The notes under the pieces were generated by a model that saw nothing but the letters and a program-made list of their open reading frames with translations, did no database searches and was not told where the DNA came from. Shown one piece after another: positions 1,166 to 31,400 of a stretch of 59,213 bases of DNA (position 1 is the first letter of the stretch; each line of letters starts with the position of its first letter). Source of the DNA: an uncultured Verrucomicrobiota bacterium (lineage in GTDB: Bacteria > Verrucomicrobiota > Verrucomicrobiia > Palsa-1439). Made by a program: the position numbers and the translations under genes. The stretch is taken from contig CAIKAP010000089.1 of NCBI GenBank assembly GCA_903825435.1, positions 1-59,213 on the forward strand, in the 5' to 3' direction.

Positions 1166-1200
1166 CCTTGGCACGGATCGTTCAATAACACTGTTCGGCC
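1166..1200 (-). repeat. End-of-array element, minus copy
   Basis: On the minus strand GGCCGAAC is followed by AACAGTGTTATT (sharing the AAC) and, a few bases on, CCGTGCCAAGG. About 25 of the 30 bases from AAC to AAGG match the sequence that ends the forward cassette array at 21785-21814. Both copies sit just after a cassette gene, and neither has a second palindrome arm. It may mark the point where cassettes join phage backbone. Confidence 0.5.
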
Positions 1201-1752: not shown

Positions 1753-1840
1753 AACGAACAAGCCGTGGGAGAGCGACGCCGAGAAACCCCACAGTTAATC
1801 CGGGCTACTTTCGCGGCGCGCCTCCACAGCGGCGTTCTGC
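1753..1840 (-). repeat. attC-like site r3 (reverse array)
   Basis: Read on the minus strand, the left core is GCAGAAC and the right core GTTCGTT. Inner arms pair as GTGG.AG.GCG.CGCCG against GTGGGAGAGCGACGCCG, with the extra bases all in the right arm. CTTGTT precedes the right crossover. The left core is the exact complement of the core opening this cassette at site r2 (GTTCTGC), and the match extends to 8 bases. Confidence 0.75.
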
Positions 1841-2076
1841 TGATACAATTCATCGACGTGGCAGACATAGGGAGCGCATTTTCCCCGGCGGATCATGGCC
1901 CATATCCCCGCGACGGCTAACACCTCGACGTTGCGCCGTTCCTTTTTGTAGCGCATTCCTCCGCTGGGGGTCCATGTTGCTTTGCTGGCCCGATGAGTGG
2001 CCGGGCCAAGCAGAACCAGGCGTGGGACTCGACCCGCACCAGCGGGCGTGTCAGTTTTGGAAGTCGGGGCTTTCAT
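1795..2076 (-). CDS. Hypothetical cassette protein, 93 aa
   Basis: Not assigned to a family. The conserved-looking core is MRYKKERRNVEVLAVAGIWAMIRR followed by a short acidic stretch (HVDELYQQ), a style seen in small phage proteins of unknown role. The ATG at 2076 overlaps the TGA of gene 2073-2288 as ATGA, and it lies in the loop of palindrome r2. The first 25 or so residues are therefore encoded by the right arm of that site. The C-terminus runs into site r3. A complete cassette by the core rule (GTTCTGC opens, GCAGAAC closes). Confidence 0.6.
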   Translation of the reverse strand: MKAPTSKTDTPAGAGRVPRLVLLGPATHRASKATWTPSGGMRYKKERRNVEVLAVAGIWAMIRRGKCAPYVCHVDELYQQNAAVEARRESSPD

Positions 2077-2112
2077 GGCGCTGGTTTGGTCGAGTCCACA
2101 TGAGCGTTCGGC
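2010..2112 (-). repeat. attC-like site r2 (reverse array)
   Basis: On the minus strand the left core is GCCGAAC and the right core GTTCTGC. Arms are GTGG.ACTCGACC and ACCAGCG, paired with CGCTGGT and GGTCGAGTCCCAC. One extra G lies in the right arm. The left arm closely resembles that of forward site p2 (16966-17067). The core opening this cassette at r1 (GTTCGAC) pairs with GCCGAAC at 6 of 7 bases. Confidence 0.75.
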
Positions 2113-2288
2113 AGAAAAGGAACCACAAATTTTAACCGTTGATCGCCGCAATTGGAAATCCCGAAGAATTCACGATTTGCAACAATCCCAATATCAAAGG
2201 AAACAATATCAGGAATGTCACATCCCGCATCTTCGCATCCCTTGCGAATTTGATTCAGAACAGAAAACACAAACAATTGTATAGTCAT
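2073..2288 (-). CDS. Hypothetical protein, 71 aa, divergent from Trypco2-like gene
   Basis: Not recognised with confidence. The last third (QRLKFVVPFLP) resembles the C-terminal strand of Trypco2-type proteins such as its neighbour (NRIRFTVPIHY), so it could be a diverged or partial relative. That resemblance is weak. Its start codon shares the bases CATG with the start of the plus-strand gene 2287-2610, so the two genes diverge from a single overlapping start with no room between them for promoters. Its end lies in the left arm of site r2. Confidence 0.5.
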   Translation of the reverse strand: MTIQLFVFSVLNQIRKGCEDAGCDIPDIVSFDIGIVANREFFGISNCGDQRLKFVVPFLPNAHVDSTKPAP

Positions 2289-2610
2289 GGAATTAGATTA
2301 TTTTGTTGAGACCACATTGACACAGATCCTTGGCGGCGTGGCAAAGGCCAAGGAGAAGTTCGGAAGCCAAGTTGGCATTAGCACTAAACACCCAAGCGGA
2401 ACAGTTGCTGTTGCCGAAGACAGCCAAGGATGGCTTGCGTATCTGGTTGAGTTTAACATTGAGGTTTCCGCGTCTTCCAAAGGGAACGGAAAGATCAAAG
2501 TAGGGTGGGCGGCGATAGGAGCCGGTGCCGGAGGTGAAGCCTCTAGAAAGTCCTCGCATACCAACCGCATTCGATTTACCGTTCCTATTCATTACAGCAA
2601 GGTCCACTAA
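2287..2610 (+). CDS. Trypco2-like protein
   Basis: 107 residues matching the layout of the trypsin-co-occurring domain 2 family. There is an N-terminal helix with LTQILGGVAKAKEKFG, a central beta hairpin (LVEFNIEVSAS), a lysine/glycine stretch ending in a Gly/Ala-rich turn (IGAGAGGEA), and a final strand NRIRFTVPIHY. The family is known from predicted bacterial conflict systems, often beside trypsin-like proteases. No protease is encoded nearby, so a role as decoy, inhibitor or stand-alone effector is only inference. It lies on the plus strand inside the reverse cassette array, between sites r1 and r2. No Shine-Dalgarno is visible. Confidence 0.65.
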   Translation: MELDYFVETTLTQILGGVAKAKEKFGSQVGISTKHPSGTVAVAEDSQGWLAYLVEFNIEVSASSKGNGKIKVGWAAIGAGAGGEASRKSSHTNRIRFTVPIHYSKVH

Positions 2611-2619
2611 AATGAAGAG

Positions 2620-2715
2620 GTCGAACAAGACGTGGCTGGACAACCGGCGCGAGCTTCTCAGTTTCATTTCAACCTCCATTCAACATCCGCCAGTGCCAGC
2701 ACATCGGCGTTCGAA
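2620..2715 (-). repeat. attC-like site r1 (reverse array)
   Basis: On the minus strand the left core is TTCGAAC and the right core GTTCGAC, preceded by CGTCTT. The inner arms pair GTG.CTGG with CCAGCCAC, leaving one extra G in the right arm as in p4 and p5. The stop codon of gene 2664-3005 lies inside the palindrome. No opening core for the upstream unit was found, so r1 marks the array edge. Confidence 0.65.
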
Positions 2716-4556: not shown

Positions 4557-4841
4557 ATGAAATACCAAATCATCATCACCAGAATCGACACCAAAAAAAC
4601 CACCAAGCGCGGAGAATACACCGTCATCGACAAGGTGCCGTGGACGCAGAAAGAATTGAGCAAAGCAAGCGACGAAATCTACGGCACATCCGTCAATTTT
4701 TTGAACGAGAATCCGCTGCGTGAAGTGCGCGGGTACGCGCCCAACTACGAAGCGCTGGAAAGCGTCAGCACGCAGGTTTTACAACAGGAAGTCGAAGACC
4801 TCGACCTCGCCGCCGTCATCAAGGCCATCAACAAACTCTGA
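4557..4841 (+). CDS. Hypothetical protein, 94 aa
   Basis: Not recognised. It opens with a beta strand (KYQIIITRID) and contains PWTQKELSKASDEIYG, followed by acidic helices (LQQEVEDLDLAAVIKAINKL). The leader (AACCGCC before ATG) has no Shine-Dalgarno. It lies two genes before the Bet-like recombinase, so an accessory recombination role is possible but unproven. Confidence 0.5.
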   Translation: MKYQIIITRIDTKKTTKRGEYTVIDKVPWTQKELSKASDEIYGTSVNFLNENPLREVRGYAPNYEALESVSTQVLQQEVEDLDLAAVIKAINKL

Positions 4842-5761: not shown

Positions 5762-6787
5762 ATGAACACGCAACTATCCCAACCTGCCCGCCGCAGCGCC
5801 CTAATCACGATGGCGAACCGACTCAACGTCGAACCCGACCAACTACTCAAGAGCCTCAAGGAAACAGTCTGCAAAGGCTGCACCGACTCCGAACTAATGG
5901 CCTTTGGCATCGTCGCTAACGAATACGGCCTCAACCCGTTCATCAAACACATCTACGCATTCCCGGCCAAGGGAGGCGGAATCGTCCCGGTCGTCAGCGT
6001 TGACGGCTGGATCACCATGGCCAACAACCACCCGCAGATGGACGGGCTAGAGTTCGCCGACGAGCACGACGACAAGCGCAACCTCGTCGCTATCACCTGC
6101 TCGATCTACCGCAAGGATCGCGCCCGCCCGGTCGTGGTGAAGGAATACCTCAATGAGTGCCGCCGCAACACCGACCCATGGAAGATGGAACACCGGATGC
6201 TTCGACACAAGGCACTCATTCAGTGCGCTCGCTACGCATTCGGATTCTCAGGCGTCTATGACGAGGACGAGGCCGCAGACATTGCCCGCAGCGGAGGCAT
6301 GCGCGAGACGACTGGCCGCGTGGTGGAAGAAAACCCCTACACCGACCAACCCGCCACCGGGCAACCCGGCCAGCAAGCCGCTGACGCGCCCGAGAAGGCC
6401 GCCCACAAGCCGCGTGGCACCAAGCAGCCGGAATCCGCCCAGGACGCGCCAACCGCCGCACCAGAGCCTCAAACACCCCCACGCAAGCAGATGGTCGACG
6501 ACCTGAAGGCAGCGTTTAAGGCGGCCGGCATCACGGCCCCCTACGCGGTCACCCTCGCCCGATCCGCCGGATTCATGAAAGCGGCAGACGACCGGTGCCG
6601 GAACGAAGCCACTCCCCGCCTGTCCAGCACCAGCGACATGACCGACGCGGAGATGGTCGAGATGTGGCAGGTGCGCGACACCCTGTTCTCCGGCCAACCC
6701 GCCAAGACCGAAACCAAGACCGACGACGACGATGCCGGCGCGGACTACCCGATGGACGGCGAAGGGCAGGAAGGAGGGAACGAGTGA
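5762..6787 (+). CDS. bet: Bet/RecT-type single-strand annealing protein
   Basis: 341 residues, typical for the Red-beta/RecT group. The conserved core lies in residues about 30-170: CTDSELMAFGIVANEYGLNP, then KGGGIVPVVSVDGW, ITMANNHPQMDGLEF, and WKMEHRMLRHKALIQCARYAFG. The C-terminal 150 residues are Pro/Ala-rich and acidic, a usual variable tail. It anneals complementary single strands coated on DNA made by the partner exonuclease. The stop overlaps the ATG of the YqaJ-type nuclease as ATGA, so the two are translationally coupled and form a two-gene recombination system. Confidence 0.9.
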   Translation: MNTQLSQPARRSALITMANRLNVEPDQLLKSLKETVCKGCTDSELMAFGIVANEYGLNPFIKHIYAFPAKGGGIVPVVSVDGWITMANNHPQMDGLEFADEHDDKRNLVAITCSIYRKDRARPVVVKEYLNECRRNTDPWKMEHRMLRHKALIQCARYAFGFSGVYDEDEAADIARSGGMRETTGRVVEENPYTDQPATGQPGQQAADAPEKAAHKPRGTKQPESAQDAPTAAPEPQTPPRKQMVDDLKAAFKAAGITAPYAVTLARSAGFMKAADDRCRNEATPRLSSTSDMTDAEMVEMWQVRDTLFSGQPAKTETKTDDDDAGADYPMDGEGQEGGNE

Positions 6788-10286: not shown

Positions 10287-10757
10287 ATGATGACGAAGGC
10301 AAAAAAAGGAACCTGTACAACCATTAAAAACGCACGAAACCAAAAAGAATACTTCATTTGGTCCGGCATGAAAACCCGCTGCTATAACGACAAACGAAAA
10401 GGGTATGAGAACTACGGTGGAAGAGGGATCACTGTATGCGATAGATGGTTTTGCTCTTACGACAACTTCATATCTGGCATGGGTCCAAGACCCAGCCCAC
10501 AACATACCATAGACAGAATTGACAACGATCTCGGTTACTCACCAGACAACTGCCGCTGGGCCACACGTAGAGAACAAAACAATAACTCGAGACGCCAAAA
10601 CATGATGACACACCGAAACAAATCCATGAACCTAACTCAATGGGCAAGGGAGCTTAACATGAGTCGTAAAGGCTTAACTGACAGGTTTGCTGCTGGGTGG
10701 AGTCAGGAACGCGCCCTTTCAAAACCTAACCAGAAAAAACGCCAATGTTCGATATAG
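10287..10757 (+). CDS. HNH endonuclease of the free-standing phage type
   Basis: 156 residues from the ATG at 10287; the next codon but one is also ATG. The order is characteristic: YFIWSGMKTRCYN, ENYGGRGITVCDRWF, FISGMGPRPSPQHTIDRIDN, GYSPDNCRWATRREQNNNSRR. The C-terminal helix-turn-helix-like piece (LTQWARELNMSRKGLTDRF) would contact DNA. Such genes are usually homing-type invaders. It is markedly more AT-rich than its neighbours, and its end overlaps gene 10745-11080 by 13 bases. The 179 bases before it have no other gene. Confidence 0.8.
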   Translation: MMTKAKKGTCTTIKNARNQKEYFIWSGMKTRCYNDKRKGYENYGGRGITVCDRWFCSYDNFISGMGPRPSPQHTIDRIDNDLGYSPDNCRWATRREQNNNSRRQNMMTHRNKSMNLTQWARELNMSRKGLTDRFAAGWSQERALSKPNQKKRQCSI

Positions 10758-11080
10758 GATCACGCGTGGTTTGTTGTGACGACCGTTTCCCCAACTGCTG
10801 CAAAGCCATCTTCCCGACCCTTCCGCGCAAAGGCCACCGCTACACCGTCCGTGACGTGGTCGCCGGCCAGGAATTGAACCTCCAGCGCACGGTCGCCATC
10901 CTGCTCGACGAGATCCACACACCTCCCAACCAACACGGAATAGAACCAGGATTCCGTCCCAGCCGCTTCGTGGACGCCAGCGAGGTCGCGGTGAGCCACC
11001 AGGAGGCCACCACCAGCATCGGCTCCTTCACGGCCCGCAGGAAGGCATTCGAGAACGCCAATGGTGATGCGCGGCGGTAG
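10745..11080 (+). CDS. Hypothetical protein, 111 aa, ends in an attC-like site
   Basis: Not recognised. It opens with FDIGSRVVCCDDRFP and KGHRYTVRDVV, a small SH3-like beta-barrel pattern common in unknown phage proteins. EIHTPPNQHGIEPGFRPSRFVD follows. The last ten residues (FENANGDARR) are encoded by the left arm of site m1, and the stop falls in its loop. The left core CGAGAAC has no matching opening core upstream, so this gene marks the edge of the small array. Confidence 0.55.
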   Translation: MFDIGSRVVCCDDRFPNCCKAIFPTLPRKGHRYTVRDVVAGQELNLQRTVAILLDEIHTPPNQHGIEPGFRPSRFVDASEVAVSHQEATTSIGSFTARRKAFENANGDARR

Positions 11081-11106
11081 CCGTCGCATCCACCTTCTTG
11101 TTCTGA
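11050..11106 (+). repeat. attC-like site m1
   Basis: Only 57 bases, the size of classical short attC sites. Left core CGAGAAC, right core GTTCTGA. Arms GGTG.ATGCG and CGCATCCACC pair with one extra base in the right arm. A 36-base stretch over the right arm and crossover (11080-11115) is identical to 18922-18957 in site p5. The cassette it opens closes perfectly at m2 (TCAGAAC). Confidence 0.8.
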
Positions 11107-11126
11107 GTCTTAATTTTTGAATCACT

Positions 11127-12065
11127 ATGCAACAACTACTTCCAGGATACGAACCAACCCACAGCGAATTTGTGGATCTGATGACACCGCAAGAGAGGAT
11201 CGATCGAGCGTTGATCTTGCTCCGCGAAAATGAACCTGACGATGGGTATTATCTAGCGTTCAGCGGGGGGAAAGACTCAGTAGTAATCAAACGCCTGGCC
11301 GAGATGGCGACTGTGAAATTCGATGCGTGGTATAACAATACGACGATTGACCCGCCCGAACTGGTGAAATTCATCAAGTCACACCATGCCGATGTTCGGT
11401 GGAACCAGCCAAAGCACGGAAGCATGATGGCGCGGGTCGCAACCAAAAACGGACTACCGCCCACAAGGTCAATGAGGTGGTGCTGCGACGAATACAAAGA
11501 ACAGGGCGGCGATAGCAGGATGAAGATTTTCGGAGTGCGCGGAGCGGAAAGCGCAGCAAGGTCAAGGAGGTGGTCAGAGATCAGCATGGACGCTTACAAG
11601 AACACGGCAATTTGCCCCATCGTTCACTGGTCTGACGCCCATGTGTGGGAGTTTATCCGGTCGGAAAATGTCCCATACTGCTCACTCTATGACGAGGGAT
11701 GGACAAGGTTGGGATGCGTGGGATGCCCGCTCAATCCGCAAAGCCAAGCAAAGGAGTTTGAACGCTGGCCGAGATACCGCGAAAATTGGAAGCGAGCGAT
11801 AATCAAGAATTGGGATGCGTTCAAAGACGTTCCGAGGCGCGACGGAAAGCCACGGTATCATGCCAAGTTCAAGACTGGTGATGACATGTGGCAATGGTGG
11901 CTATCGACCAACGCGCCGGACTATTTTAGAGGCGACTGCCAGAGCATGATGCTTTGGACGTCCGAGGACGGGTTGCCTTTCTTTGATCCTCAGAACAGCC
12001 AAGCCATCCCACGCGAAGCGTTGGGATCGGCGACCTGTTCGACACCCGAGGAAAATCAACCATGA
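11127..12065 (+). CDS. PAPS-reductase-family (PP-loop) protein in a cassette
   Basis: 312 residues. The adenine-nucleotide alpha-hydrolase PP-loop is SGGKDS at 46-51. Cys pairs follow at 119/120 (RWCCDEYK) and 197/200 (LGCVGCP), a spacing that could hold a metal or iron-sulfur centre. Phage members of this family resemble both assimilatory PAPS reductases and the sulfur-handling DndC proteins, and none of this can be settled from sequence. It fills the cassette between sites m1 and m2. The last 25 residues (from FDPQNSQ) are encoded by site m2. A role in DNA or nucleotide modification is inference. Confidence 0.75.
   Translation: MQQLLPGYEPTHSEFVDLMTPQERIDRALILLRENEPDDGYYLAFSGGKDSVVIKRLAEMATVKFDAWYNNTTIDPPELVKFIKSHHADVRWNQPKHGSMMARVATKNGLPPTRSMRWCCDEYKEQGGDSRMKIFGVRGAESAARSRRWSEISMDAYKNTAICPIVHWSDAHVWEFIRSENVPYCSLYDEGWTRLGCVGCPLNPQSQAKEFERWPRYRENWKRAIIKNWDAFKDVPRRDGKPRYHAKFKTGDDMWQWWLSTNAPDYFRGDCQSMMLWTSEDGLPFFDPQNSQAIPREALGSATCSTPEENQP
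11990..12043 (+). repeat. attC-like site m2
   Basis: Left core TCAGAAC is the exact complement of the m1 opening core GTTCTGA, and the match extends to 8 bases. Right core GTTCGAC. Arms GCC.ATCCCA and TGGGATCGGC pair with one extra base in the right arm. Total 54 bases. No closing partner for GTTCGAC was found downstream before 16277. Confidence 0.8.
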
Positions 12066-16058: not shown

Positions 16059-16281
16059 AATCACACCCGCACACCAAGCAATCCTCGAGCGCGTGAAGCA
16101 GATCACCTACGCCCGCCAGATCAACTGGATCACCAGTCAGCCGCAGGACTCGGAACTGGAAACAACCCACCAAGCGGAACTCAAGTGCCTCAGTGAGTCG
16201 CTGACCCAGCACGAACCAGTAGCCACCAAACAAACCCTGCTCCAGCGGTTCTTCGCGTGGATGGAAAGAATGAAAATATGA
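16048..16281 (+). CDS. Hypothetical protein, 77 aa
   Basis: Not recognised. Wholly helical, with TPAHQAILERVKQITYARQI and LKCLSESLTQHE. Ends in a basic amphipathic segment (LLQRFFAWMERMKI). Overlaps the helicase end by 11 bases. Its stop codon overlaps the left core of palindrome p1, where the forward cassette array begins. Confidence 0.5.
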   Translation: MTTEITPAHQAILERVKQITYARQINWITSQPQDSELETTHQAELKCLSESLTQHEPVATKQTLLQRFFAWMERMKI

Positions 16282-16399
16282 ACGTCCAAGGCCACGCGTC
16301 GGGGCGGCAGGAACCACAACTGAAGCGATAACGCATCTCCAATCCTATGAGCAACGAAACTAGAACCAATGCCCCGTCGCGTGCGCCGACTTGTTCGGC
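16277..16399 (+). repeat. attC-like site p1, start of forward array
   Basis: Left core TATGAAC, right core GTTCGGC after CGACTT. Inner arms CACGCG.CGGGGC pair with GCCCCG.CGCGTG, leaving one mismatch. The loop contains the ATG of the PolX-like gene. The left core has no partner upstream, so p1 is the array edge. The opening core GTTCGGC is closed exactly at p2. Confidence 0.8.
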
Positions 16400-16958
16400 T
16401 GGAAAAGTTCGCTGGCCGCGATCCGCCGGATTGGAAGTTGCCAAAGAACTCTGCGACCGACTCAAACCGTGCTGCGAAAAGCTGATCGTGGCGGGCAGTC
16501 TTCGCCGCCGGAAATCCGACATTGGTGACGTGGAAATCCTCTACGTCTCGCGCATGGAATCCCGCCCATTCGACATGTTCTCCTCCGTCTCGGTCAGCCT
16601 GGCGGAAGAGGAGATTGCGAGGATGCTGGAAGACGGGACGGTGATGAAGCGCCCGTCGAAAGTCGGTGGCACGGCATGGGGAGACAAAAACAAGCTGGCG
16701 CTTCACCGCTCCGGCATGCCCGTCGATCTATTCCGCACGATGCCCGAATCATGGTGGAACTATCTGGTCTGCCGCACCGGCCCAGCCGATAGCAATACGC
16801 GGATCGCCCACGAGGCGCAGCACAAAGGCTACCGCTGGAATCCCTATGGTGCCGGATATACCTGCCTTGCCGATGGCCGCATCACGCCGATGGACAGCGA
16901 GGAATCCGTCTTCGCATTCGTCGGCCTTCCCTACCTTGAACCATGGAACCGAAAATAA
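16347..16958 (+). CDS. PolX-type nucleotidyltransferase in a cassette
   Basis: 203 residues. The Pol-beta superfamily palm motif is VAGSLRRRKSDIGDVEIL (Gly50-Ser51, Asp61 and Glu63), with a third carboxylate at MPVDLF (Asp127). A short thumb-like end (WWNYLVCRTGPADSNTRIA) follows. There is no 8-kDa lyase domain, so it is a minimal phage-type enzyme that could fill small gaps or add nucleotides. The ATG at 16347 lies in the loop of site p1, so about 18 N-terminal residues come from that palindrome. A TTG at 16431 matches the usual family start better. It is the sole gene of the cassette between p1 and p2. Confidence 0.75.
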   Translation: MSNETRTNAPSRAPTCSAGKVRWPRSAGLEVAKELCDRLKPCCEKLIVAGSLRRRKSDIGDVEILYVSRMESRPFDMFSSVSVSLAEEEIARMLEDGTVMKRPSKVGGTAWGDKNKLALHRSGMPVDLFRTMPESWWNYLVCRTGPADSNTRIAHEAQHKGYRWNPYGAGYTCLADGRITPMDSEESVFAFVGLPYLEPWNRK

Positions 16959-16965
16959 TTTCTCT

Positions 16966-17067
16966 GCCGAACGCCGATGTCCAGCCGACCACACCAGCGC
17001 CCCAATAGCATGAAAGCACGAACTAACAAGAACGCTGGTGCGGGTCGGCTGGGACGCCTTGTTCGGC
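16966..17067 (+). repeat. attC-like site p2
   Basis: The clearest palindrome. GCCGAAC and GTTCGGC are the cores, with CAGCCGACC/GGTCGGCTG and ACCAGCG/CGCTGGT as arms and one extra base in the right arm. CGCCTT precedes the right crossover. The left core closes the PolX cassette (7 of 7). The right core is closed at p3 (8 of 8). Confidence 0.88.
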
Positions 17068-17264
17068 CTTTCGAGGTCGGGGAAAGCGTGTACTACCAGA
17101 ACCACGCTGCCGGATACCAGATATTCCCGCTGGAAGTGTTGGACATCGCAGGAAATATCGTCACCGCCAGAAACGAAGAATGCCGGACATTCACGTTCCG
17201 AGCCGATACAGGACGGGCCACATGGTCCCCGAATCTGTCGATCAAGCATTGGCCGAACGTCTAA
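17010..17264 (+). CDS. Hypothetical cassette protein, 84 aa
   Basis: Not recognised. A small beta-rich protein (VGESVYYQNHAAGYQIFPLEVLDI, NIVTARNEECRTFTF), plausibly an SH3-like barrel. The ATG at 17010 is in the loop of p2, and the first 19 residues (MKARTNKNAGAGRLGRLVR) are encoded by its right arm. The end (IKHWPNV) runs into the left core of p3. Thus the whole gene is framed by two palindromes, as expected for a single-gene cassette. Confidence 0.6.
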   Translation: MKARTNKNAGAGRLGRLVRPFEVGESVYYQNHAAGYQIFPLEVLDIAGNIVTARNEECRTFTFRADTGRATWSPNLSIKHWPNV

Positions 17265-17355
17265 ATGCACCCACCGCTATGAGCGCCCCCGACCCGACCG
17301 TTAAAACCCCTGACGCAGCCGCGAATAGCGGTTGCGGTGCCATGCCTTGTTCTCC
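17252..17355 (+). repeat. attC-like site p3
   Basis: Left core GCCGAAC, right core GTTCTCC after GCCTT. Arms GCACC.CACCGCTAT pair with ATAGCGGTTGCGGTGC, with the extra bases in the right arm. The opening core GTTCTCCC is closed at p4 by GGGAGAAC (8 of 8). Confidence 0.88.
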
Positions 17356-17359
17356 CGTT

Positions 17360-17542
17360 ATGACGCGGTACTGGACACTTCTGTTTGAGACGCACGACGG
17401 GATGTGCCACCCAACAAGAATTACCTTCAGGACCGAAGGAACCGAAGCCGACGCTCGACGGCATGGATCGGAATATATGCAACGCGAATCCCGGTGGCTG
17501 AAATCCATCTGCGATTGTTACCCAACAGAGATCAAATCATGA
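17360..17542 (+). CDS. Hypothetical cassette protein, 60 aa
   Basis: Not recognised. A compact alpha/beta protein (TRYWTLLFETHDG, RITFRTEGTEADARRHG, ESRWLKSICDCYP). The ATG at 17360 begins 5 bases after the right core of p3, the usual position for a cassette gene. An ATG at 17279 in the palindrome loop would add 27 residues. First of three genes in the p3-p4 cassette. The stop overlaps the next ATG as ATGA. Confidence 0.6.
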   Translation: MTRYWTLLFETHDGMCHPTRITFRTEGTEADARRHGSEYMQRESRWLKSICDCYPTEIKS

Positions 17543-17733
17543 GCGACCCCGAAACAGAAACAGTCAACGTCACCATCATAGGAGAGACGGAGAAAGCCTA
17601 TCGTTTAAGCGATGGCGAACTTGAGAGATGGTTCCCGAAATCGGAAGTCACCTTCCAACAGCGGAACATCAAGACCGGCAAGGCCACAGCGGAAATCCCG
17701 CTCTGGCTGCTCGAAGCGAAAGGATGGAACTAA
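17539..17733 (+). CDS. Hypothetical cassette protein, 64 aa
   Basis: Not recognised. An acidic small beta protein (VNVTIIGETEKAYRLSDGELERWFPKSEV and AEIPLWLLEAKGW). The pattern 'WFPKS' followed by 'EIPLWLLEAKG' is seen in small phage and mobile-element proteins that I cannot name. Coupled at both ends: ATGA at the start, TAATG at the stop. Middle gene of the p3-p4 cassette. Confidence 0.6.
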   Translation: MSDPETETVNVTIIGETEKAYRLSDGELERWFPKSEVTFQQRNIKTGKATAEIPLWLLEAKGWN

Positions 17734-18590
17734 TGAAAGGACTACGACTCGACAACCCGAACGGCATGCTACCCGATCCCGGCGAATATGGACGCGACTC
17801 ACGCGGCGACTGGTATGGCATGACTCCCAACGGACACCTTGCAAACCTCAGCGCTCATGCCGTCATGGAAGAGGACGACGGGACGATCACCGTGCATCCA
17901 TCCATCTTGGTGAAGGCACCGGATGGCACCGAACTGTGGCACGGATTCCTACGCGACGGCGTGTGGGAACCGTGCGGACACTATTGGGAGAACGTCAAAG
18001 TGCATGCGCCCGCGCCAAGCCCGGAGATTGAAACGCAACAAGCAAGCTTTTGCGGGTCGCATGCCACGCCTTGTTCGGAATCTTCAATTATTGGGGACTC
18101 AACCTTGCCCACGTCTGAAATTCCCTCCCTGCAAAACCCCAACCGCAAGAATCCCACCAATCTGAAAGAAAAATCCGCGCAACTTTATCCGGGGTACCCT
18201 TGGGGAACGGAAAAAGCCCGCCTGGAAGAGTGGTATGGCATCCCATTAGACCTAACAGGAAAGAGCGTGCTGTCGCGACACGAATTCGCAAAAGTAGCAG
18301 CGCTTCTTCACTGCATTGAGGTAATTTGCCCGACGATGACCATTGCCGAACTACTTCATGAACTTCTTCTCTATGCGCGTGACAGATCGCTTCCCAGGTG
18401 CATTGTGAGCCATCTAGTGGAACATCCATTATTCTCAGATCAGCGAATAATGAAGTTGGATGGTCCGAGCGCTCAATCTGACCTAGAATCATTGATGCTT
18501 CATACCATGTGTGGGTCGCTTCAAGGTTTGGTGTCATTGTGTGATATGCCTTCTGATTGTTTCTCTAAGGTGTCATCAAATATCGCTTAA
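17733..18590 (+). CDS. Fused cassette ORF: DUF6527-like N-terminus joined across an attC-like site
   Basis: 285 residues that read without stop through palindrome p4. Residues 1-85 look like a small DUF6527-type protein (MTPNGHLANLSAHAV, EEDDGTITVHPSILV, LWHGFLRDGVWE). Residues about 86-117 are encoded by the palindrome itself. The rest (IPLDLTGKSVLSRHEFAKVA, AELLHELLLYARD) is an unrelated helical domain that belongs to the next cassette. So one frame joins two cassettes. Either a fusion protein is made, or the second part has its own unrecognised start. The start overlaps the previous stop as TAATG. Confidence 0.55.
   Translation: MKGLRLDNPNGMLPDPGEYGRDSRGDWYGMTPNGHLANLSAHAVMEEDDGTITVHPSILVKAPDGTELWHGFLRDGVWEPCGHYWENVKVHAPAPSPEIETQQASFCGSHATPCSESSIIGDSTLPTSEIPSLQNPNRKNPTNLKEKSAQLYPGYPWGTEKARLEEWYGIPLDLTGKSVLSRHEFAKVAALLHCIEVICPTMTIAELLHELLLYARDRSLPRCIVSHLVEHPLFSDQRIMKLDGPSAQSDLESLMLHTMCGSLQGLVSLCDMPSDCFSKVSSNIA
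17987..18079 (+). repeat. attC-like site p4, inside an open frame
   Basis: Left core GGAGAAC, right core GTTCGGA after GCCTT. Arms GTG.CATGCG.CCCGC pair with GCGGGTCGCATGCCAC, with two single extra bases, both in the right arm. The left core closes the p3 cassette, and the right core is closed at p5 by TTCCGAAC (8 of 8). The frame of gene 17733-18590 stays open through it. Confidence 0.88.
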
Positions 18591-18852
18591 TCTCCAATAT
18601 GCTGGGAAAACTCATGAGCAACCCAACTGCATGCCGAAAAGGACTCCCATCGGGATCGCCTCCAAACTTCTCAACAAACCGATCAAGGTCGTTGGGAAGC
18701 CATTCTGCAATCTTATGCCCCGGCAGCAAACCAAGGAAGCGCATCTTGAAAATAGCGATTCCCTGCTGCGTAACCGACAGCATGACCTTTTCTCCTGAAT
18801 CCAACTGCACAGTCGAATACCGTGACTCCATGTATGTGATGATACGTGCCAT
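18565..18852 (-). CDS. Hypothetical protein, 95 aa, minus strand in cassette p4-p5
   Basis: Not recognised. Mixed alpha/beta (MARIITYMESRYSTVQLDS, KVMLSVTQQGIAIFKMRF, WLPNDLDRFVEKFGGD). Overlaps the end of the plus-strand gene by 26 bases and is transcribed toward it. The ATG at 18852 lies 10 bases inside the cassette end, with AT-rich DNA upstream. A minus-strand gene inside a plus-strand cassette must carry its own promoter. Confidence 0.55.
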   Translation of the reverse strand: MARIITYMESRYSTVQLDSGEKVMLSVTQQGIAIFKMRFLGLLPGHKIAEWLPNDLDRFVEKFGGDPDGSPFRHAVGLLMSFPSILEIKRYLMTP

Positions 18853-18861
18853 ATTTTTATT

Positions 18862-18948
18862 TCCGAACGCTGATGGTGATGCGTCGGCGCGGAAACCGCC
18901 GCTGTAACTACTGAGCCTCTCGCCGTCGCATCCACCTTCTTGTTCTGA
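18862..18948 (+). repeat. attC-like site p5
   Basis: Left core TCCGAAC, right core GTTCTGA after TTCTT. Arms GGTG.ATGCG.CGGCG pair with CGCCGTCGCATCCACC, with one extra base in the right arm. Its right half is identical over 36 bases (18922-18957) to site m1 at 11080-11115. Its opening core pairs with the p6 left core at 6 of 7 positions. Confidence 0.85.
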
Positions 18949-18970
18949 GTCTTAATTCCAAACCGCTGCC

Positions 18971-19144
18971 ATGCCCAAAAGCTACTCACCACCGAAAAAC
19001 CCAAGCCGCCAATACCTGGAAGACATCGCCTGGATCAAGGCGTTTGTCGGGTGCGGGTGGACTGGAAAACGCGCCATCGGGGCTGCCGACGCAGCCATAG
19101 GAATCACCATCATCCTGCCACAAAAGAAAAAACGTCCGAACTGA
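18971..19144 (+). CDS. Small cassette protein, 57 aa
   Basis: A short open frame alone in the 190-base cassette between p5 and p6. It starts 23 bases after the right core. It is basic, with a helical middle (YLEDIAWIKAFVGCGWTGKRA) and a hydrophobic end (AAIGITIILPQKKKRPN). It may contact membranes, but no family is recognised. The stop lies in the left arm of p6. Confidence 0.5.
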   Translation: MPKSYSPPKNPSRQYLEDIAWIKAFVGCGWTGKRAIGAADAAIGITIILPQKKKRPN

Positions 19145-19220
19145 CGCTATGAGCGCCCCAGACGCAAAATTAACCCCGGAGCCCGCCGCGAATGCGGTTA
19201 GCTCCAGGGTCTTGTTGGAC
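19135..19220 (+). repeat. attC-like site p6
   Basis: Left core TCCGAAC, right core GTTGGAC after GTCTT. GTTGGAC fits the classical GTTRRRY consensus. The arms are weaker than elsewhere, but a nested hairpin GGAGC/GCTCC is clear. The opening core GTTGGACG is closed at p7 by CGTCCAAC (8 of 8). Confidence 0.75.
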
Positions 19221-19223
19221 GTC

Positions 19224-19457
19224 TTAGACGAGCGTGGACATGACGTTGAGCGGGGCGGCCTCAGGCATGCGGCCGGACTCCCAGCCCTCGACTGTGCGTC
19301 GGGACACGCCGCACTTGTCGGCAAGCTGTTGTGTGCTCAATTTGAGCTTGGCGCGGATCGCCTTGATGCCGGGGGCGTAGTCCATGACCTTCCCGTCATC
19401 CCCGAGGATGACGGGTTGGCCGTAAGAACTTGCAGAGTGATTGCATGTGACTCTCAT
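19224..19457 (-). CDS. XRE-family HTH regulator in cassette
   Basis: 77 residues. The HTH is KLKLSTQQLADKCGVSRRTVEGWESGRMP at about 37-65, a textbook XRE/Cro domain. An internal ATG (MDYAPGIKAIRAKLKL) may be the real start. It is the last gene of a three-gene minus-strand operon (20021 to 19224) that fills the p6-p7 cassette. The operon's control region at 20060-20135 carries a TTACGC-6-GCGTAA palindrome that this protein could bind. The plus-strand frame covering these genes is a shadow. Confidence 0.7.
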   Translation of the reverse strand: MRVTCNHSASSYGQPVILGDDGKVMDYAPGIKAIRAKLKLSTQQLADKCGVSRRTVEGWESGRMPEAAPLNVMSTLV

Positions 19458-19460
19458 GGC

Positions 19461-19685
19461 TTATGCGAGGTTGGCGGTGACAAAATCCCCATGCTTGGAG
19501 TCCACCCAAAGGCCGCGCAGCGAGCCGTCAGGCATGCGGGTCCAAAACGTGGCGGTGATGAGCTTGCCGGATGCAAATCCGACCGCAGCGCCCATGGATT
19601 CCGGGCGGGCGAAAAATCCGGTGCCGCGATCCTCAGTGATGAGGCCGCGCCGGCCGGTAGTGTCTATGATGTGTTTGATGGTCAT
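19461..19685 (-). CDS. Hypothetical cassette protein, 74 aa
   Basis: Not recognised. A small beta-rich protein (HIIDTTGRRGLITEDRGTGFF, GKLITATFWTRMPDGSLRGLWVDS). It lies 3 bases before the XRE gene in the same minus-strand operon. No catalytic pattern or membrane segment is visible. Confidence 0.55.
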   Translation of the reverse strand: MTIKHIIDTTGRRGLITEDRGTGFFARPESMGAAVGFASGKLITATFWTRMPDGSLRGLWVDSKHGDFVTANLA

Positions 19686-19706
19686 GGTTGTGTGTGGGGT
19701 TGGAGA

Positions 19707-20021
19707 TTACAGGGTTTTGATCGCGGCTTGCAGCTCGGCGAGAGAGTAACCGCGAGCAAGGCAAGCGGTGTTGGCGGCGGCAAGATCTTTGGCTGTCCAC
19801 CCCTGGGCCTTGGCCCACGCGCGGGCGGATTCGATGCCCTCGCGAGTGGCCAACGGGCTGGCGGCAGCGCGGGCGGAGGCCAACTCGGCGCTCAGACGCT
19901 CAATCTCGGACTCGTCAACGTAGCCGCCTTGGGACTCGTTGTTGACGGCGCGGAAAGCGGCGCGCTTGGCGGCGGCGGCTTTGAGATCGGATTCGATGGA
20001 GGTGATGGGGCGGGTGGTCAT
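19707..20021 (-). CDS. Hypothetical helical cassette protein, 104 aa
   Basis: Not recognised. Helical and Ala-rich, with ESDLKAAAAKRAAFRAVN, a heptad-like ESEIERLSAELASARAAASPLAT, and a C-terminal SAP-like piece (AWAKAQGWTAKDLAAANTACLARGYS). I chose the ATG at 20021 because it follows the A/C-rich leader style used across the genome; 20048 is an alternative. First gene of the cassette's minus-strand operon. A link with the XRE gene in a toxin-antitoxin-like unit is conceivable but not shown. Confidence 0.55.
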   Translation of the reverse strand: MTTRPITSIESDLKAAAAKRAAFRAVNNESQGGYVDESEIERLSAELASARAAASPLATREGIESARAWAKAQGWTAKDLAAANTACLARGYSLAELQAAIKTL

Positions 20022-20068
20022 GGTCTTGGTGGTTTGCAGGGGCCTCATTGCCCGCTGACGAGATCAAT

Positions 20069-20116
20069 TTACGCTTTTCTGCGTAACGGTCAACAATTAT
20101 TTTCGCATTTCTGCAT
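20069..20116 (-). promoter_or_regulatory. Operator-like repeats upstream of cassette minus operon
   Basis: A perfect inverted repeat TTACGC-TTTTCT-GCGTAA lies at 20069-20086. A similar box, CGCATTTCTGCAT, lies at 20104-20116 and matches CGCTTTTCTGCGT inside the first. Two related boxes 32 bases apart in an AT-rich gap, upstream of an operon that encodes an XRE protein, suggest autoregulation. Confidence 0.5.
20095..20105 (-). promoter_or_regulatory. Shared AT-rich promoter-like motif, copy 2
   Basis: CGAAAATAATT on the minus strand, identical to 3041-3051. It lies between the two operator-like boxes, 74 bases upstream of the start at 20021. Confidence 0.35.
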
Positions 20117-20143
20117 ATTTTTTTTCAGGGCCGATTTCGGTCC

Positions 20144-20294
20144 GTCCAACGCTAACTGTCCACCCGTGGGCGAGAAAGAATAAGCCAATGGACCCATCAG
20201 ACCGACTCCAAATGTACTACGACGCATTCAGCGCACGCCAGCGCCTAGCAAAAGAGCAAGCGAAACGCCCATCGGGTGCGACGGATTGTTCGAC
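20144..20294 (+). repeat. attC-like site p7
   Basis: The longest site, 151 bases. CCGTCCAAC and GTTCGACGG frame it. CACCCG.TGGGCG (20161-20172) pairs with CGCCCATCGGGTG (20266-20278), with one extra A in the right arm. The 93-base loop holds the start of gene 20188-20481. The opening core GTTCGAC is closed at p8 (7 of 7). Confidence 0.85.
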
Positions 20295-20481
20295 GGTTCT
20301 TGTAACCGCTCGCGACCCACAAGCAGTGGAGCTTCTTACCCGCGCCGTCAAATGGTTGGACCGCCTGCACAACCGCAGGGACATGGTATCCCCTGCATTT
20401 TGGGATAACTATACCGACCCCGAACCGCTGTTGCGCGATGTCCGCAAGTATCTGTCGAACGCAGAGGTATCCGACCGATGA
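20188..20481 (+). CDS. Hypothetical cassette protein, 97 aa
   Basis: Not recognised. Helical (MDPSDRLQMYYDAFSARQRLAKEQAK, QAVELLTRAVKWLDRLHN), with an acidic end (YTDPEPLLRDVRKYLSNAE). The ATG is in the loop of p7, and residues up to about 36 are encoded by the loop and right arm of that site. The C-terminus runs into the left arm of p8. It fills the p7-p8 cassette. Confidence 0.55.
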   Translation: MDPSDRLQMYYDAFSARQRLAKEQAKRPSGATDCSTVLVTARDPQAVELLTRAVKWLDRLHNRRDMVSPAFWDNYTDPEPLLRDVRKYLSNAEVSDR

Positions 20482-20553
20482 CAGCGCCCCAGGACATCAC
20501 CACACCCCAAGACTCCCCCGCTGGCAGCGGTTCGGATCACCGTCTTGTTCGTG
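20454..20553 (+). repeat. attC-like site p8
   Basis: Left core GTCGAAC, right core GTTCGTG after GTCTT. Arms ATCCGA.CCG and CGGTTCGGAT pair with one extra base in the right arm, then CAGCG/CGCTG. The opening core GTTCGTGG is closed at p9 by CCACGAAC (8 of 8). Confidence 0.85.
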
Positions 20554-20589
20554 GTCTTTGGGGACGCCCGAAAAAAATCTCACTTTGTG

Positions 20590-20600
20590 CGAAAATAAAT
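20590..20600 (+). promoter_or_regulatory. Shared AT-rich promoter-like motif, copy 3
   Basis: CGAAAATAAAT, one base different from the copies at 3041 and 20095 (minus). It lies 77 bases before the ATG of gene 20677-20934, inside the p8-p9 cassette. The cassette may therefore carry its own promoter. Confidence 0.35.
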
Positions 20601-20676
20601 GTTGGCTTGGTTCGCCCTTTGTGCGATTCTCTCCCCGTCGCCGCGAGCGACGCAAACAACCAACCAAATCAATCGA

Positions 20677-20934
20677 ATGAAACTGCAAATCACAAACCGC
20701 CGGGCGCTGCTGAAAAACTTCAACGTCGAGAACTGCACGACCGCCGCAAACTCAAGATACGTCGGTGCCGAAGTCCTCACGAATCGCAACAATCCGCTGG
20801 CCATCGGCTTCAAGCACACGAATGGAAGTGGATACCACATCCTGACTTTCCGGTGCGTTGATCGTGCGACCGGGAAATGCGTCTGCACAGAGTCGGGATT
20901 CGAGGAAACCGCAAAACATGTCTATTGCGCATGA
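20677..20934 (+). CDS. Hypothetical cassette protein, 85 aa
   Basis: Not recognised. A compact beta-rich protein (KLQITNRRALLKNFNVENC, YVGAEVLTNRNNPLAIGFKHTNG, YHILTFRCVDRATGKCVC). The ATG at 20677 follows the leader CAACCAAATCAATCGA, with no Shine-Dalgarno. The stop overlaps the ATG of the XRE gene as ATGA, so the two are coupled, like a target or partner protein with its regulator. Confidence 0.55.
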   Translation: MKLQITNRRALLKNFNVENCTTAANSRYVGAEVLTNRNNPLAIGFKHTNGSGYHILTFRCVDRATGKCVCTESGFEETAKHVYCA

Positions 20935-21119
20935 ACTTCTCAGAAACCATCCGCACCGAACGCGAGCGCCTCGGCCTGACACAGGCAGGGGTGGCCGCTC
21001 GTCTTGGCGTCTCCAAGTCGGTCATCGAAAAATGGGAAGCCGGCACCCGCACCCCCCTTGCAATCACGCAAGAGGGGGTGCTCTCCCGTCTTCGATCAAC
21101 CCCGAAATCCCGAAAGTGA
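20931..21119 (+). CDS. XRE-family HTH regulator in cassette, 62 aa
   Basis: Residues 4-45 are a canonical XRE domain (TIRTERERLGLTQAGVAARLGVSKSVIEKWEAGTRTP). The rest is a short tail. The stop comes 4 bases before the left core of site p9. Coupled to gene 20677-20934, it forms a two-gene cassette. The pairing recalls HTH antitoxins next to a small partner, but nothing proves that. Confidence 0.7.
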   Translation: MNFSETIRTERERLGLTQAGVAARLGVSKSVIEKWEAGTRTPLAITQEGVLSRLRSTPKSRK

Positions 21120-21123
21120 ATCC

Positions 21124-21228
21124 CACGAACGACCAAGCTGAGCGATGAGAGGGAGCGTGCAAATGATGTTCGATTGCAACGTGGACGTGCCCGCGCTCCC
21201 TCTCATTCGCTCCAGCGCGTGGTTAGAC
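21124..21228 (+). repeat. attC-like site p9
   Basis: Left core CACGAAC, right core GTTAGAC, which fits the classical GTTRRRY consensus exactly. Arms GAGCG.ATGAGAGGGAGCG pair with CGCTCCCTCTCATTCGCTC, with one extra base in the right arm. The opening core, GTTAGACGGCC, is complementary over 11 bases to GGCCGTCTAAC at 21777-21787. Confidence 0.9.
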
Positions 21229-21786
21229 GGCCTTTCCGGCGAAGCGTTCGACTCTCAATGGCGGCAATGCTCTGCAATCGAAAAGTGCTCCGTGACTGCG
21301 CTCGACGAATACATCCGGGCGCACTACCTCGGCAAGCGGCCGGCCATCGTGATGCTCGCGCTGAAAATGACGGTGCGGAAAGAGCCTGTCGGAATGGTCA
21401 TCTACTCGATGCCGCCACGGGAAGCGGACACGCGCTACGGTGGCAAGACGTGGGAACTGGCCAGACTCTACCTGCTCGACGAAATCCCGCGCAATGCCGA
21501 GACGTGGCTGATAGGCCGCAGCGTCCGCTACATCAAACAGAACCATCGGGAAGTGAAATACCTCCTGAGCTACGCTGACCCGTCCGCTGGTCATCGCGGC
21601 ACAATCTACCAAGCGGCCAACTGGAAAGCAGACGGAAGGACAGACGATGAACGCAAAACACCACGATGCGACTACTACGACGACCGCACCGGCCAGAAAT
21701 ACGGCAGGCGCGGGAACATGCCAGCGGATGCCGTCATCGTCCGCAAACCGAGGGTGTCCAAGTGGCGCTACGTCTTGGCCGTCTAA
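21145..21786 (+). CDS. Mom-like DNA-modification protein (GNAT fold) in a cassette
   Basis: 213 residues. The central part follows phage Mom and its relatives: HYLGKRPAIVML, KTWELARLYLLDEIPRNAETW (103-121), LLSYADPSAGHRGTIYQAANW (140-160). Mu Mom modifies adenine (methylcarbamoylation) and shields DNA from restriction enzymes. The ATG at 21145 lies in the left arm of p9, so the first 28 residues are palindrome-encoded. A later start would match the family better, but no good ATG exists. It fills the last cassette, whose closing core GTCTAAC begins at 21781 and overlaps the stop codon. Confidence 0.75.
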   Translation: MRGSVQMMFDCNVDVPALPLIRSSAWLDGLSGEAFDSQWRQCSAIEKCSVTALDEYIRAHYLGKRPAIVMLALKMTVRKEPVGMVIYSMPPREADTRYGGKTWELARLYLLDEIPRNAETWLIGRSVRYIKQNHREVKYLLSYADPSAGHRGTIYQAANWKADGRTDDERKTPRCDYYDDRTGQKYGRRGNMPADAVIVRKPRVSKWRYVLAV

Positions 21787-21814
21787 CAGTTTTATTATAC
21801 CACCCGTGCCAAGG
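21777..21814 (+). repeat. Closing core and end-of-array element, plus copy
   Basis: GGCCGTCTAAC closes the Mom cassette (11-base complement to its opening core). No second palindrome arm follows. Instead the AAC runs into AGTTTTATT and, a few bases on, CCGTGCCAAGG. This resembles the minus-strand end element at 1166-1200 over about 25 of 30 bases. AAGGA at 21811-21815 may also serve as ribosome-binding site for gene 21825-22163. Confidence 0.6.
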
Positions 21815-28306: not shown

Positions 28307-28409
28307 GACTGCCTGCGGGATTGGAACCCACAACGGATGGTTAAGACATGGTCGAAGCATAGGCCGCGCAACCCCGTGACACCATGGGCAGTAACCCTGC
28401 TAACCACCC

Positions 28410-28457: not shown

Positions 28458-31400
28458 ATGGCCTCATATAGAGATTTGAACGATCCCGACGTCAACGACT
28501 TCCTAGATCGAGTTTCCAACGGCACGGCAGGCGTGGACCCACAAGCGAACGCGATGGCCCGGACCACCGGGAACCCGCAAGCGCAGGCGGAAGGCAACAT
28601 GATCCTGGCCCGGCAGGCAGCGGAGCGAGATGCGCAGCAGCAGCAGCAGGCCGCGCAGATCCAGCAGGACGCCATCAAAGCACAGAAGGACCAAGCCAAA
28701 GCGCAGGAGGAGCAGCAAAAGGCCACGGTTCGGGCAGCCGCCGCCGCAGGGATGCAGACCGGAATCGGGATCGCCAGCGGAAAGCAGGAGGTCAAGACCG
28801 ACGACACCGGCAAACCGCTCTGGAAGGTCGGGGCAGTGGCACCGCCGCGCCAAGTGCCCGCAGTCAACGATGCGATGACAACGGTCCCTGGCCTCGGCGA
28901 CATTTACCAGCACGGCCACATGGGGATGCCGGTCGGCTACGAGCCGGCCAACGGCCAAGCCGCCGTGCAAACGTGGCGCGACGAGCACAACAACCAGGTG
29001 ACGCGCCCGGTGCCCACCAAGACCGACATGGACACCGGCAACGTGACCACCACCGGCAAGGACCAGTTCGGCGCGCCGACGACCGTCAATGCCGGGACCG
29101 ACTTCGCCAACCAGGCGCAGGCGCAGGCGAAAGCCGACCTCGACCAGCGGCACGCGACCATCCAAGCCCGCGAAGCGCAGATCCAGATGCGGCGCTTGCA
29201 GTTCGATCCCGCGTTCAAAGCCGTGGATGACGCGGCAACCGACGCCGGCCGCGAACTGGCCGCATTCTACAAGTCTCCGAAGTTCATCCGAACGGACGAC
29301 GGCAAGTGGGCGAAGCGCGACGCGGACACGGACCTACCGAAGAAGGTGACCACCGTCAAAGTCATCGGCGGCAAGGTTTACCAACCAGGCGAAGTCGAAC
29401 CGACCGACCCCGAGGAACTGACCAAGTGGCAGCGCCAGAAGGACTACCTCGAATCAGTCAACGCGCAGGCGCAGGCAGCCCGCAACAAGCTCCAGCCTGC
29501 CGCCGACCAACTGAAAGTGGCCGAGCAGAAGGTCAAGCAGGACCGCTACCAGCACAGCCTCGACCTGATCCGGCACCTGCACCCCGGCATCGACGATGGG
29601 AGCGCCGACCTGCTGGCAGCCACACAGACGGGGCAACCGAGCCAGACCGCGCAGGCGTTCGACGCCATCACGGGACTTCCAGCCGCGGCCCCGCCGTTCA
29701 ATGGACCGCCAGCGCCGCAGGATTCAGCGCAACCAGGTATTGCGTCCGGCGCAAATCCACAACAGCCGCAACCAGCCGCCACTGGGAAACAGCTACCAAC
29801 CACCGGCCAAAATCCGCAGTTCGACGCATGGAAGGCACAATACGCGCCCAACGACACCGGCAAGGATTACGACCTGATGGGAGCGTTCAGCGCGGGAATC
29901 AAGCCCGATGGCGACCGGGGACACTTCCCCGACACGTTCAAACTGCCGAATCATCCGACATTCTCCGATCAGTCGCAGTATTCCACCAAGGACGCACCCG
30001 GCGGCAAGTGGGGCACTGATGCGGACGGGAAGGACACATTCACGCCCTCTCCGTGGATGGCGAAAGACCCGGCGCGGATGGCCTACCTCAAGGATTACAT
30101 GGCCAAGGCCGAGCCGAACGCGAAATTGATCCTGCCCGAAGCAAAGACCGCCCCCTCGGCGGCGGCGCAACCGCTCATCCCGCTCGACCAGATGGACGAC
30201 CCATCCAAGCTGACCGCAGCGTCAAAGCTGGTCGGTGGACTCAAAGACCCGGCCAGCGTCAAGGTCGAAACCTTGCCAGCCGGCGTGACGGCGCTCACCC
30301 GCAACGGCGACAATATCGGATTCATGTCCCGCGACAGCCAGGGCAACCCGATGTTCGAACTGAGCAGCAGCGTGGAAGGCAGTGACCTGCGGCACCATGT
30401 CGATTTCAGCGCGACCACCGGCATCCCGATCTACCTGCAACGCGCTCCCGGCACCGAGCCGCACGACCCGGTCAAGGGTGCCCAATACGTCGCCAGCGTC
30501 ATGGCAGCGGTCAAGAACGTAACTGACAACCCCGGTTCCTACGCCAACCCGCAGGCGGCCAACGACGCGGTCAAGACCAGCCTCCAGGCGCTCCAAGCCA
30601 CGCCCGACCAGATCAGCGCCAAGGTACGCACCGGCCAACTGGCCGTGCAGCAGGGGCAGGCGACCATGAAAAACGTGTGGGGAATGAGCCTGCAGCCCGA
30701 CGATCCGAGCGACCTCAAACTCTTCCACGAATGGTTCATCAAGCAGCCTGCCGACGTCCAGAAGGCATGGAAGAACTCGACCACGCCCGAGGAATCCAAC
30801 CCGATCAAGGCCGAATACCTCAAGGATTGGATCCAGAACAACGCATGGAAGCCGGGAATGGACCAGGCGTTCGTCGACAAGACGTGGAAGCAGCAACTCC
30901 CCGGACGCGCACCGGAAGGCCAACTCGAAACCATCGGGCGAAACCTCGTCATGGACACGGTGCCGGCCATTGGGACGGCGGTCGGAGCGGCCATCGGTGG
31001 TCTCCTCGGAATCGAGTCAGGCCCAGGCGCGGTGGCTACGGCAACGGCCGGCGGCATGGCAGGCGCAGCCATCGCCACCAAAGCGCAGAAAGCCATCTTT
31101 CACGCGGTCTTCGGCGACAACGCCATGAAGGAAATGGAATACCAGCAGGCGGCCAACAGAGCGGCGCACCCAGGGGCCGACCAGATCGGCGCTATGGCGC
31201 CGCTCCTGATCTCCTGCATCGGCAACCCGGTCGGCGGAGCAGTGAAGGTCGAAGGCAAACTCCTCGGCCGTGCGCTCACCGCCAGCGGCAAAGCCGCCAT
31301 CGCTGCCAACGAGGCCGCGCCATGGGCGGAACGCGTGGCGCAGAATTGGGCAACCGGCATGCGCGTCGGTGGTGGTGACAAACTCCGCGATTGGGTGAAC

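Follow-up and report, generated by a model that had tools for sequence, protein, structure and literature searches.

A PAPS-reductase-family gene in a phage genome appears to ride on a genuine integron gene cassette that is inserted at an attC site, and we consider it likely that an integron integrase acting in trans accounts for its presence there. The gene lies in a stretch of 59,213 nucleotides (the window) that carries 14 attC-type sites in three clusters, termed m, n and p. More broadly, this integrase-less phage probably collects cassettes, held in two arrays that begin with attI-like sites and in the outlying PAPS cassette, by using the IntI of its host. Judged by the definition of CALINs (at least two nearby attC sites without intI), the m1/m2, p and n clusters all belong to this type.

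Within a 3.43 Mb MAG, the window constitutes contig C89. Its ends overlap by a direct repeat of 141 bases (1-141 is identical to 59073-59213), so it probably represents an entire circular phage genome, about 59.07 kb long. Phage genes on this contig include those for the large and small terminase subunits, DnaB, RecT (5762-6787), a RecU/resolvase, a major-head-like protein, a sigma factor and a Mom-like protein. A tRNA-Arg (tcg) gene (28307-28392, minus strand) is located between the terminase and a single giant ORF (28458-41183, 4241 aa) without an NCBIfam match. No close relative was found among isolated phages, the best terminase match being only 28% identical. A search of the whole MAG with TIGR02249 returned one bona fide IntI, on contig C161 (376.7 bits), and no intI over the cut-off on C89. 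The MAG integrase is closest to Verrucomicrobiota/Limisphaerales integrases, with 60-68% identity. The phage probably belongs to a Verrucomicrobiota bacterium, and both the binning and the similarity of the attI and attC types point to the MAG as its host.

Sites m1 (11053-11103) and m2 (11993-12040) are imperfect palindromes that fold at -24.4 and -24.0 kcal/mol respectively and have HNH genes on both sides. From GAAC to GTTC, m1 spans 51 nt (57 with cores), and m2 spans 48 nt (54 with cores). Both have the anatomy expected of attC, with R and L boxes, extrahelical bases confined to one arm and a variable loop. In the canonical reading, on the minus strand, R'' of m1 is CTCAGAAC and the extrahelical bases are G then A; m2 has the spacing AAC-N5-3bp-EHB-6bp-A. 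The cassette cores GTTCTGAG (at 11100) and CTCAGAAC (left side of m2) pair over 8 bases, so that the 5′ core of the PAPS cassette can base-pair over 8 bp with R'' in the attC belonging to this cassette. Taken together, the folds, the cores, the model scores and the 36-base repeat described below place m1 and m2 far beyond chance as attC sites. An earlier note on this DNA, made by reading alone, had described two short attC sites that frame a single PAPS-family gene and have cores complementary over 8 bases, and our folds, scores and profile match bear out both descriptions.

The polarity of these sites determines which of them travels with the gene. Canonical attC sites carry their extrahelical bases in the L'' arm and have 5/6 spacers. 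At all 13 sites compared, the two extra bases lie in the arm that is right-hand on the gene strand, with 6/5 spacers, and the canonical reading is therefore on the minus strand for the m and p sites and on the plus strand for the n sites. A covariance model in this reading (R1), made from 11 window sites with m1 included and m2 left out, was run on the integrase loci of same-class genomes and of named MAGs, where 33 of the 34 attC matches adjoining bacterial intI genes point away from intI. The sole match in the wrong direction (17.7 bits) lies inside intI. At m1, which is part of the model, R1 scores 57.2 bits on the minus strand versus 2.7 on the plus strand, and at m2, which is absent from it, 27.9 versus 4.4 bits. 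The canonical attC polarity at the m cluster is thus opposite to the gene strand, and the mobile unit therefore consists of m1 and the gene, with m1 as the attC of the PAPS cassette and m2 as the site that accepted it. The classical reading of the cassette boundaries, in gene sense, is ruled out by the extrahelical bases and by the intI loci. What had been proposed as a one-cassette array does consist of one gene between two attC sites; as to polarity, the proposal was incorrect or incomplete.

The PAPS-family (PP-loop) ORF extends from 11127 to 12065 on the plus strand and encodes 312 aa. It matches PF01507 (PAPS_reduct) with an E value of 7.3e-23 (81.9 bits, cut-off 22.5) and phrog_424 with an E value of 8e-34, and scores far below the cut-offs of the CysH models TIGR00434 and TIGR02057. 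The ORF is thus a member of the PF01507 family that is not assigned to CysH. Its ATG lies 24 bases past the core and not in the attC loop, an exception among the phage cassettes, and its final ~24 residues are read through m2. The cassette is oriented so that the gene runs against the polarity of its attC and along with phage transcription. We reconstructed the empty site in silico by excising 11056-11995, the putative mobile unit of 940 bp (minus strand) comprising m1 and the gene. The excision joins a phage gene (10745-11080, plus strand), whose 3′ end would have been replaced by m1, to the tail that now ends the PAPS ORF. This junction is precise and in frame, and the last bases of the restored tail overlap the start codon of the HNH gene at 12062 as ATGA. 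There is no intact cassette to the right of m2 and no attI at the m site.

A 36-base cassette end within and beside m1 (11080-11115, minus strand) is an exact match to 18922-18957 at p5, as the earlier note had reported, and a 30-mer from it occurs in only two copies, those of m1 and p5, in the 3.43 Mb MAG. The p5 site (18865-18945, minus strand) is of the m1 type and differs in the loop and in a few bases of the left arm. The common part comprises the whole R''/L'' half and 15 bp of the cassette body, which is consistent with a common origin of the m1 and p5 ends; it lies wholly within a single cassette end and spans no boundary between cassettes. The core of the p5 cassette is mismatched, as if this cassette had been rebuilt by deletion. 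The related proposal that cassettes or their ends have moved between arrays holds in so far as the PAPS cassette and the 16-21 kb array have ends in common, and movement of the PAPS cassette between them is plausible.

The two larger clusters are organized as arrays. The p array (16280-21225, minus strand) contains p1 (16280-16396), p2 (16969-17064), p3 (17255-17352), p4 (17990-18076), p5, p6 (~19139-19216), p7 (~20148-20290), p8 (20457-20550) and p9 (21127-21225), and the n array (1756-2712, plus strand) contains n3 (1756-1837), n2 (2013-2109) and n1 (2623-2712). Over the three clusters, cores match by at least 7 bases (7 to 11) in 10 of 13 adjacent pairs versus 9 of 197 non-adjacent pairs, and a permutation gives p = 5e-5, the smallest value reachable. 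The unmatched adjacent pairs are p5-p6, n1-n2 and n3-n4. In site p6 the left arm has been lost and the loop sequence is copied from p3 (CGCTATGAGCGCCCC); the site marks a deletion or rearrangement within the array. The tetranucleotide TCTT recurs at positions 9-12 past the core GTT (right cores 11100, 18073, 18942, 19214, 20547, n1 and n3), which corresponds to AAGA just inside the cassette end and is also seen in the MAG's own integron (L011).

Genes in these arrays are usually antisense to attC, as is the PAPS gene, and they therefore run with phage transcription. Gene sense along attC polarity, which is usual although not obligatory, is seen for the longest ORF in 10 of the 11 bacterial cassettes examined. 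At least one gene of the p array, an HTH gene (19224-19457, minus strand), does run with attC polarity. Eight of the 14 phage attC sites have a loop ATG that begins a phage-strand ORF of 80 aa or more, compared with three of 27 control attC sites read on the equivalent strand (Fisher p 0.003), and in-frame loop start codons for the gene that follows on the phage strand are present at p1, p2, p3, p7, p8, p9, n1 and n2. Examples are a PolX-like gene (16347-16958, plus strand, Pfam match) in cassette p1/p2, which starts in the p1 loop, and a Mom-like DNA modification gene (21145-21786, plus strand; phrog_1384, 5.7e-29), the first cassette gene after attI, which starts in the p9 loop. Similar leader peptides are encoded from attC loops (MSAPDPT, MSAPDAK, MTAPQDI and MKAPTSK).

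Both large arrays begin with attI-like sites, a feature that was absent from the earlier reading. The n array is preceded by GGCACGGATCGTTCAATAACACTG↓TT (1170-1195, plus strand) and the p array by GGCACGGGTGGTATAATAAAACTG↓TT (21785-21810, minus strand), each located by a PWM and by the motif GGCACGG..GT..AATA..ACTG↓TT, which in the canonical reading precedes the first G↓TT of each array. This motif, which was derived from the two copies themselves, is present twice in the window and in none of 100 shuffles. As an independent check, a bacterial attI PWM of 24 nt, whose training set was limited to six bacterial sites next to intI, ranks the two sites first and second among ~118,000 window positions (1176, plus strand, 20.2 bits; 21781, minus strand, 18.9 bits), whereas the maxima of 30 random windows average 13.1 bits and the highest reaches 18.8 bits (1/30). 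The third-ranked position (20584, plus strand, 14.4 bits) lies within a cassette and is probably due to chance. Conversely, when a PWM was derived from five phage sites, its top match in most Limisphaerales-type loci (L114-L121, L126, L127 and L130) was the site that lies upstream of intI. We refer to the phage sites as attI-like, a designation that follows from similarity over 24 nt. With respect to the organization of a complete integron, the n and p arrays have attI-like sites at their starts, the m cluster does not, and there is no linked intI.

Similar array starts are present in two other phage contigs, and attI-like sites thus begin integrase-less arrays in three phage contigs, including the window. 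In L021 the two array starts (7136 and 7876) are the top two PWM matches (17.3 and 9.2 bits). Contig L102, which has a tape-measure gene, carries an attI-like site (4678-4693) and, downstream of it, an attC whose 7-base core matches; a tblastn search with the IntI of the MAG detected no integrase on this contig. Because L102 was found through an attI-derived pattern, its attI match is in part circular, and the downstream attC is the independent part. No viral contig matched the 18-base attI motif exactly; a looser motif matched 26, with attC recovered by the model only in L102. A scan for AATAATACTGTTNGRC matched at least 120 viral contigs; these matches are probably due to chance, because no attC was found in the 80 of them that were scanned.

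Other phages and same-class genomes were compared with respect to movement. A PAPS homologue in L013 shares 78.6% nucleotide identity over 11130-11977 only, so that homology stops at the cassette edges, and its product diverges past residue ~289. It lies in an unrelated phage context, with no detectable attC around the gene. None of 383 other same-class genomes carries the PAPS gene, and neither an empty m site nor a PAPS gene in another array was found in any relative; the earlier note had looked to genomes that carry the PAPS cassette in the 16-21 kb array, and no such relative emerged. In scans of viral contigs, neither the m1 end sequence nor gene 10745-11080 matched anything but the same phage. 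The terminase scan yielded one relative, L021, whose terminase is about 70% identical. There the PolX-like gene is an ordinary gene upstream of DnaB, and in the window it is downstream of DnaB, in cassette p1/p2; the L021 array downstream of DnaB holds other genes than those of the window phage. The gene content of the platform thus differs between relatives, as far as one distant pair can indicate. The R1 model misses the attC of L021, and their identification therefore rests on folding and inspection by eye.

Several other explanations were weighed against capture by an integrase in trans. Readings of the palindromes as terminators, REP-like elements or homing-endonuclease scars, for which the HNH genes on both sides might speak, are highly improbable, as they are contradicted by the attC-specific asymmetry, by the covariance-model matches beside intI and by the attI-like starts, which would be unexpected. 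Equally remote is a chimera of assembly or binning in which a chromosomal attC cluster was joined to a phage. The contig was indeed binned in a MAG, but its ends overlap by 141 bases and at three places its cassettes alternate with phage genes. In addition, a stretch of 11.8 kb that includes m1 and m2 is identical in a virus record (L012), although this record probably derives from the same sample.

That the PAPS gene was swapped by ordinary phage mosaicism, with homologous recombination through the 36-base end and with attC serving as homology only, is unlikely. The identity between m1 and p5 and the presence of RecT are in keeping with such a process, while pairing of the m1 and m2 cores over 8 bases is the signature of site-specific exchange of cassettes, and the reconstructed empty site has an exact, in-frame junction. 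Somewhat less doubtful is the possibility that the cassettes are fossils, in which host-integron material was gained by homologous or illegitimate recombination and no integrase now acts in the phage. The lost left arm of p6, the three core pairs that no longer match, the antisense genes (versus sense in 10 of 11 bacterial cassettes) and an IntI source that is only inferred would fit this explanation. However, 10 of 13 core pairs are perfect or near-perfect, both attI-like sites are preserved, and the array content of L021 differs at the same place downstream of DnaB.

In the capture mechanism that we favour, a Verrucomicrobiota host would supply IntI in trans. Replication or recombination of the phage may expose attC as a single strand, and IntI would then fold the recombinogenic attC strand, here the gene-coding strand, and exchange the folded attC with attI or with another attC. 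In this manner the integrase would have inserted m1 and the PAPS gene (11056-11995) at m2, within the 3′-terminal part of a phage gene. Captured genes, being mostly antisense to attC, would follow phage transcription, and several would start in attC loops. The anatomy and polarity of the sites, the core pairing, the attI similarity and the presence of intI in the MAG and its absence from the phage are observed; the recombination itself, the supplier of IntI and the order of these events we infer. More tentatively, and with somewhat less than even confidence, we propose that integrase-free attI platforms and cassettes that carry attC 5′ of the gene, with a start codon in the loop, could allow the host IntI to bring in and rearrange genes for counter-defence and DNA metabolism, aligned with phage transcription.

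Qi et al. 2023 (PMC9892861) described clusters of attC without integrase in phages, including virulent ones, and showed that phage attC recombine with attI1 through IntI1; the attI sites in that account occur in temperate phages, together with an integrase gene or a complete integron. The window phage resembles those described there in its integrase-less attC clusters and differs, as far as that account describes them, in having two integrase-less arrays that start at attI-like sites, mostly antisense genes and attC loops with start codons. With the sedentary chromosomal integrons of Verrucomicrobiota (Limisphaerales/Pedosphaerales; L114-L121 and C161) it has in common the attI core, the attC architecture and spacing and the core pairing, whereas in those integrons intI lies beside attI and genes run with attC polarity. 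Insertion at attG or secondary sites likewise places a cassette outside the main arrays without an adjoining attI, but the acceptor m2 is a full attC hairpin and not a bare GTT site. Within the limited literature compared, phage attI platforms without integrase appear to be new.

Although attC clusters in phages were already known, their origin and use had been unclear. The PP-loop sulfur-type enzyme and the Mom-like DNA modifier suggest a counter-defence cargo, and the arrays suggest that the phage exploits the integron enzyme of its host to gather and swap genes. If this is true, phages would go beyond carrying stray cassettes and parasitise host integrons for gene capture.
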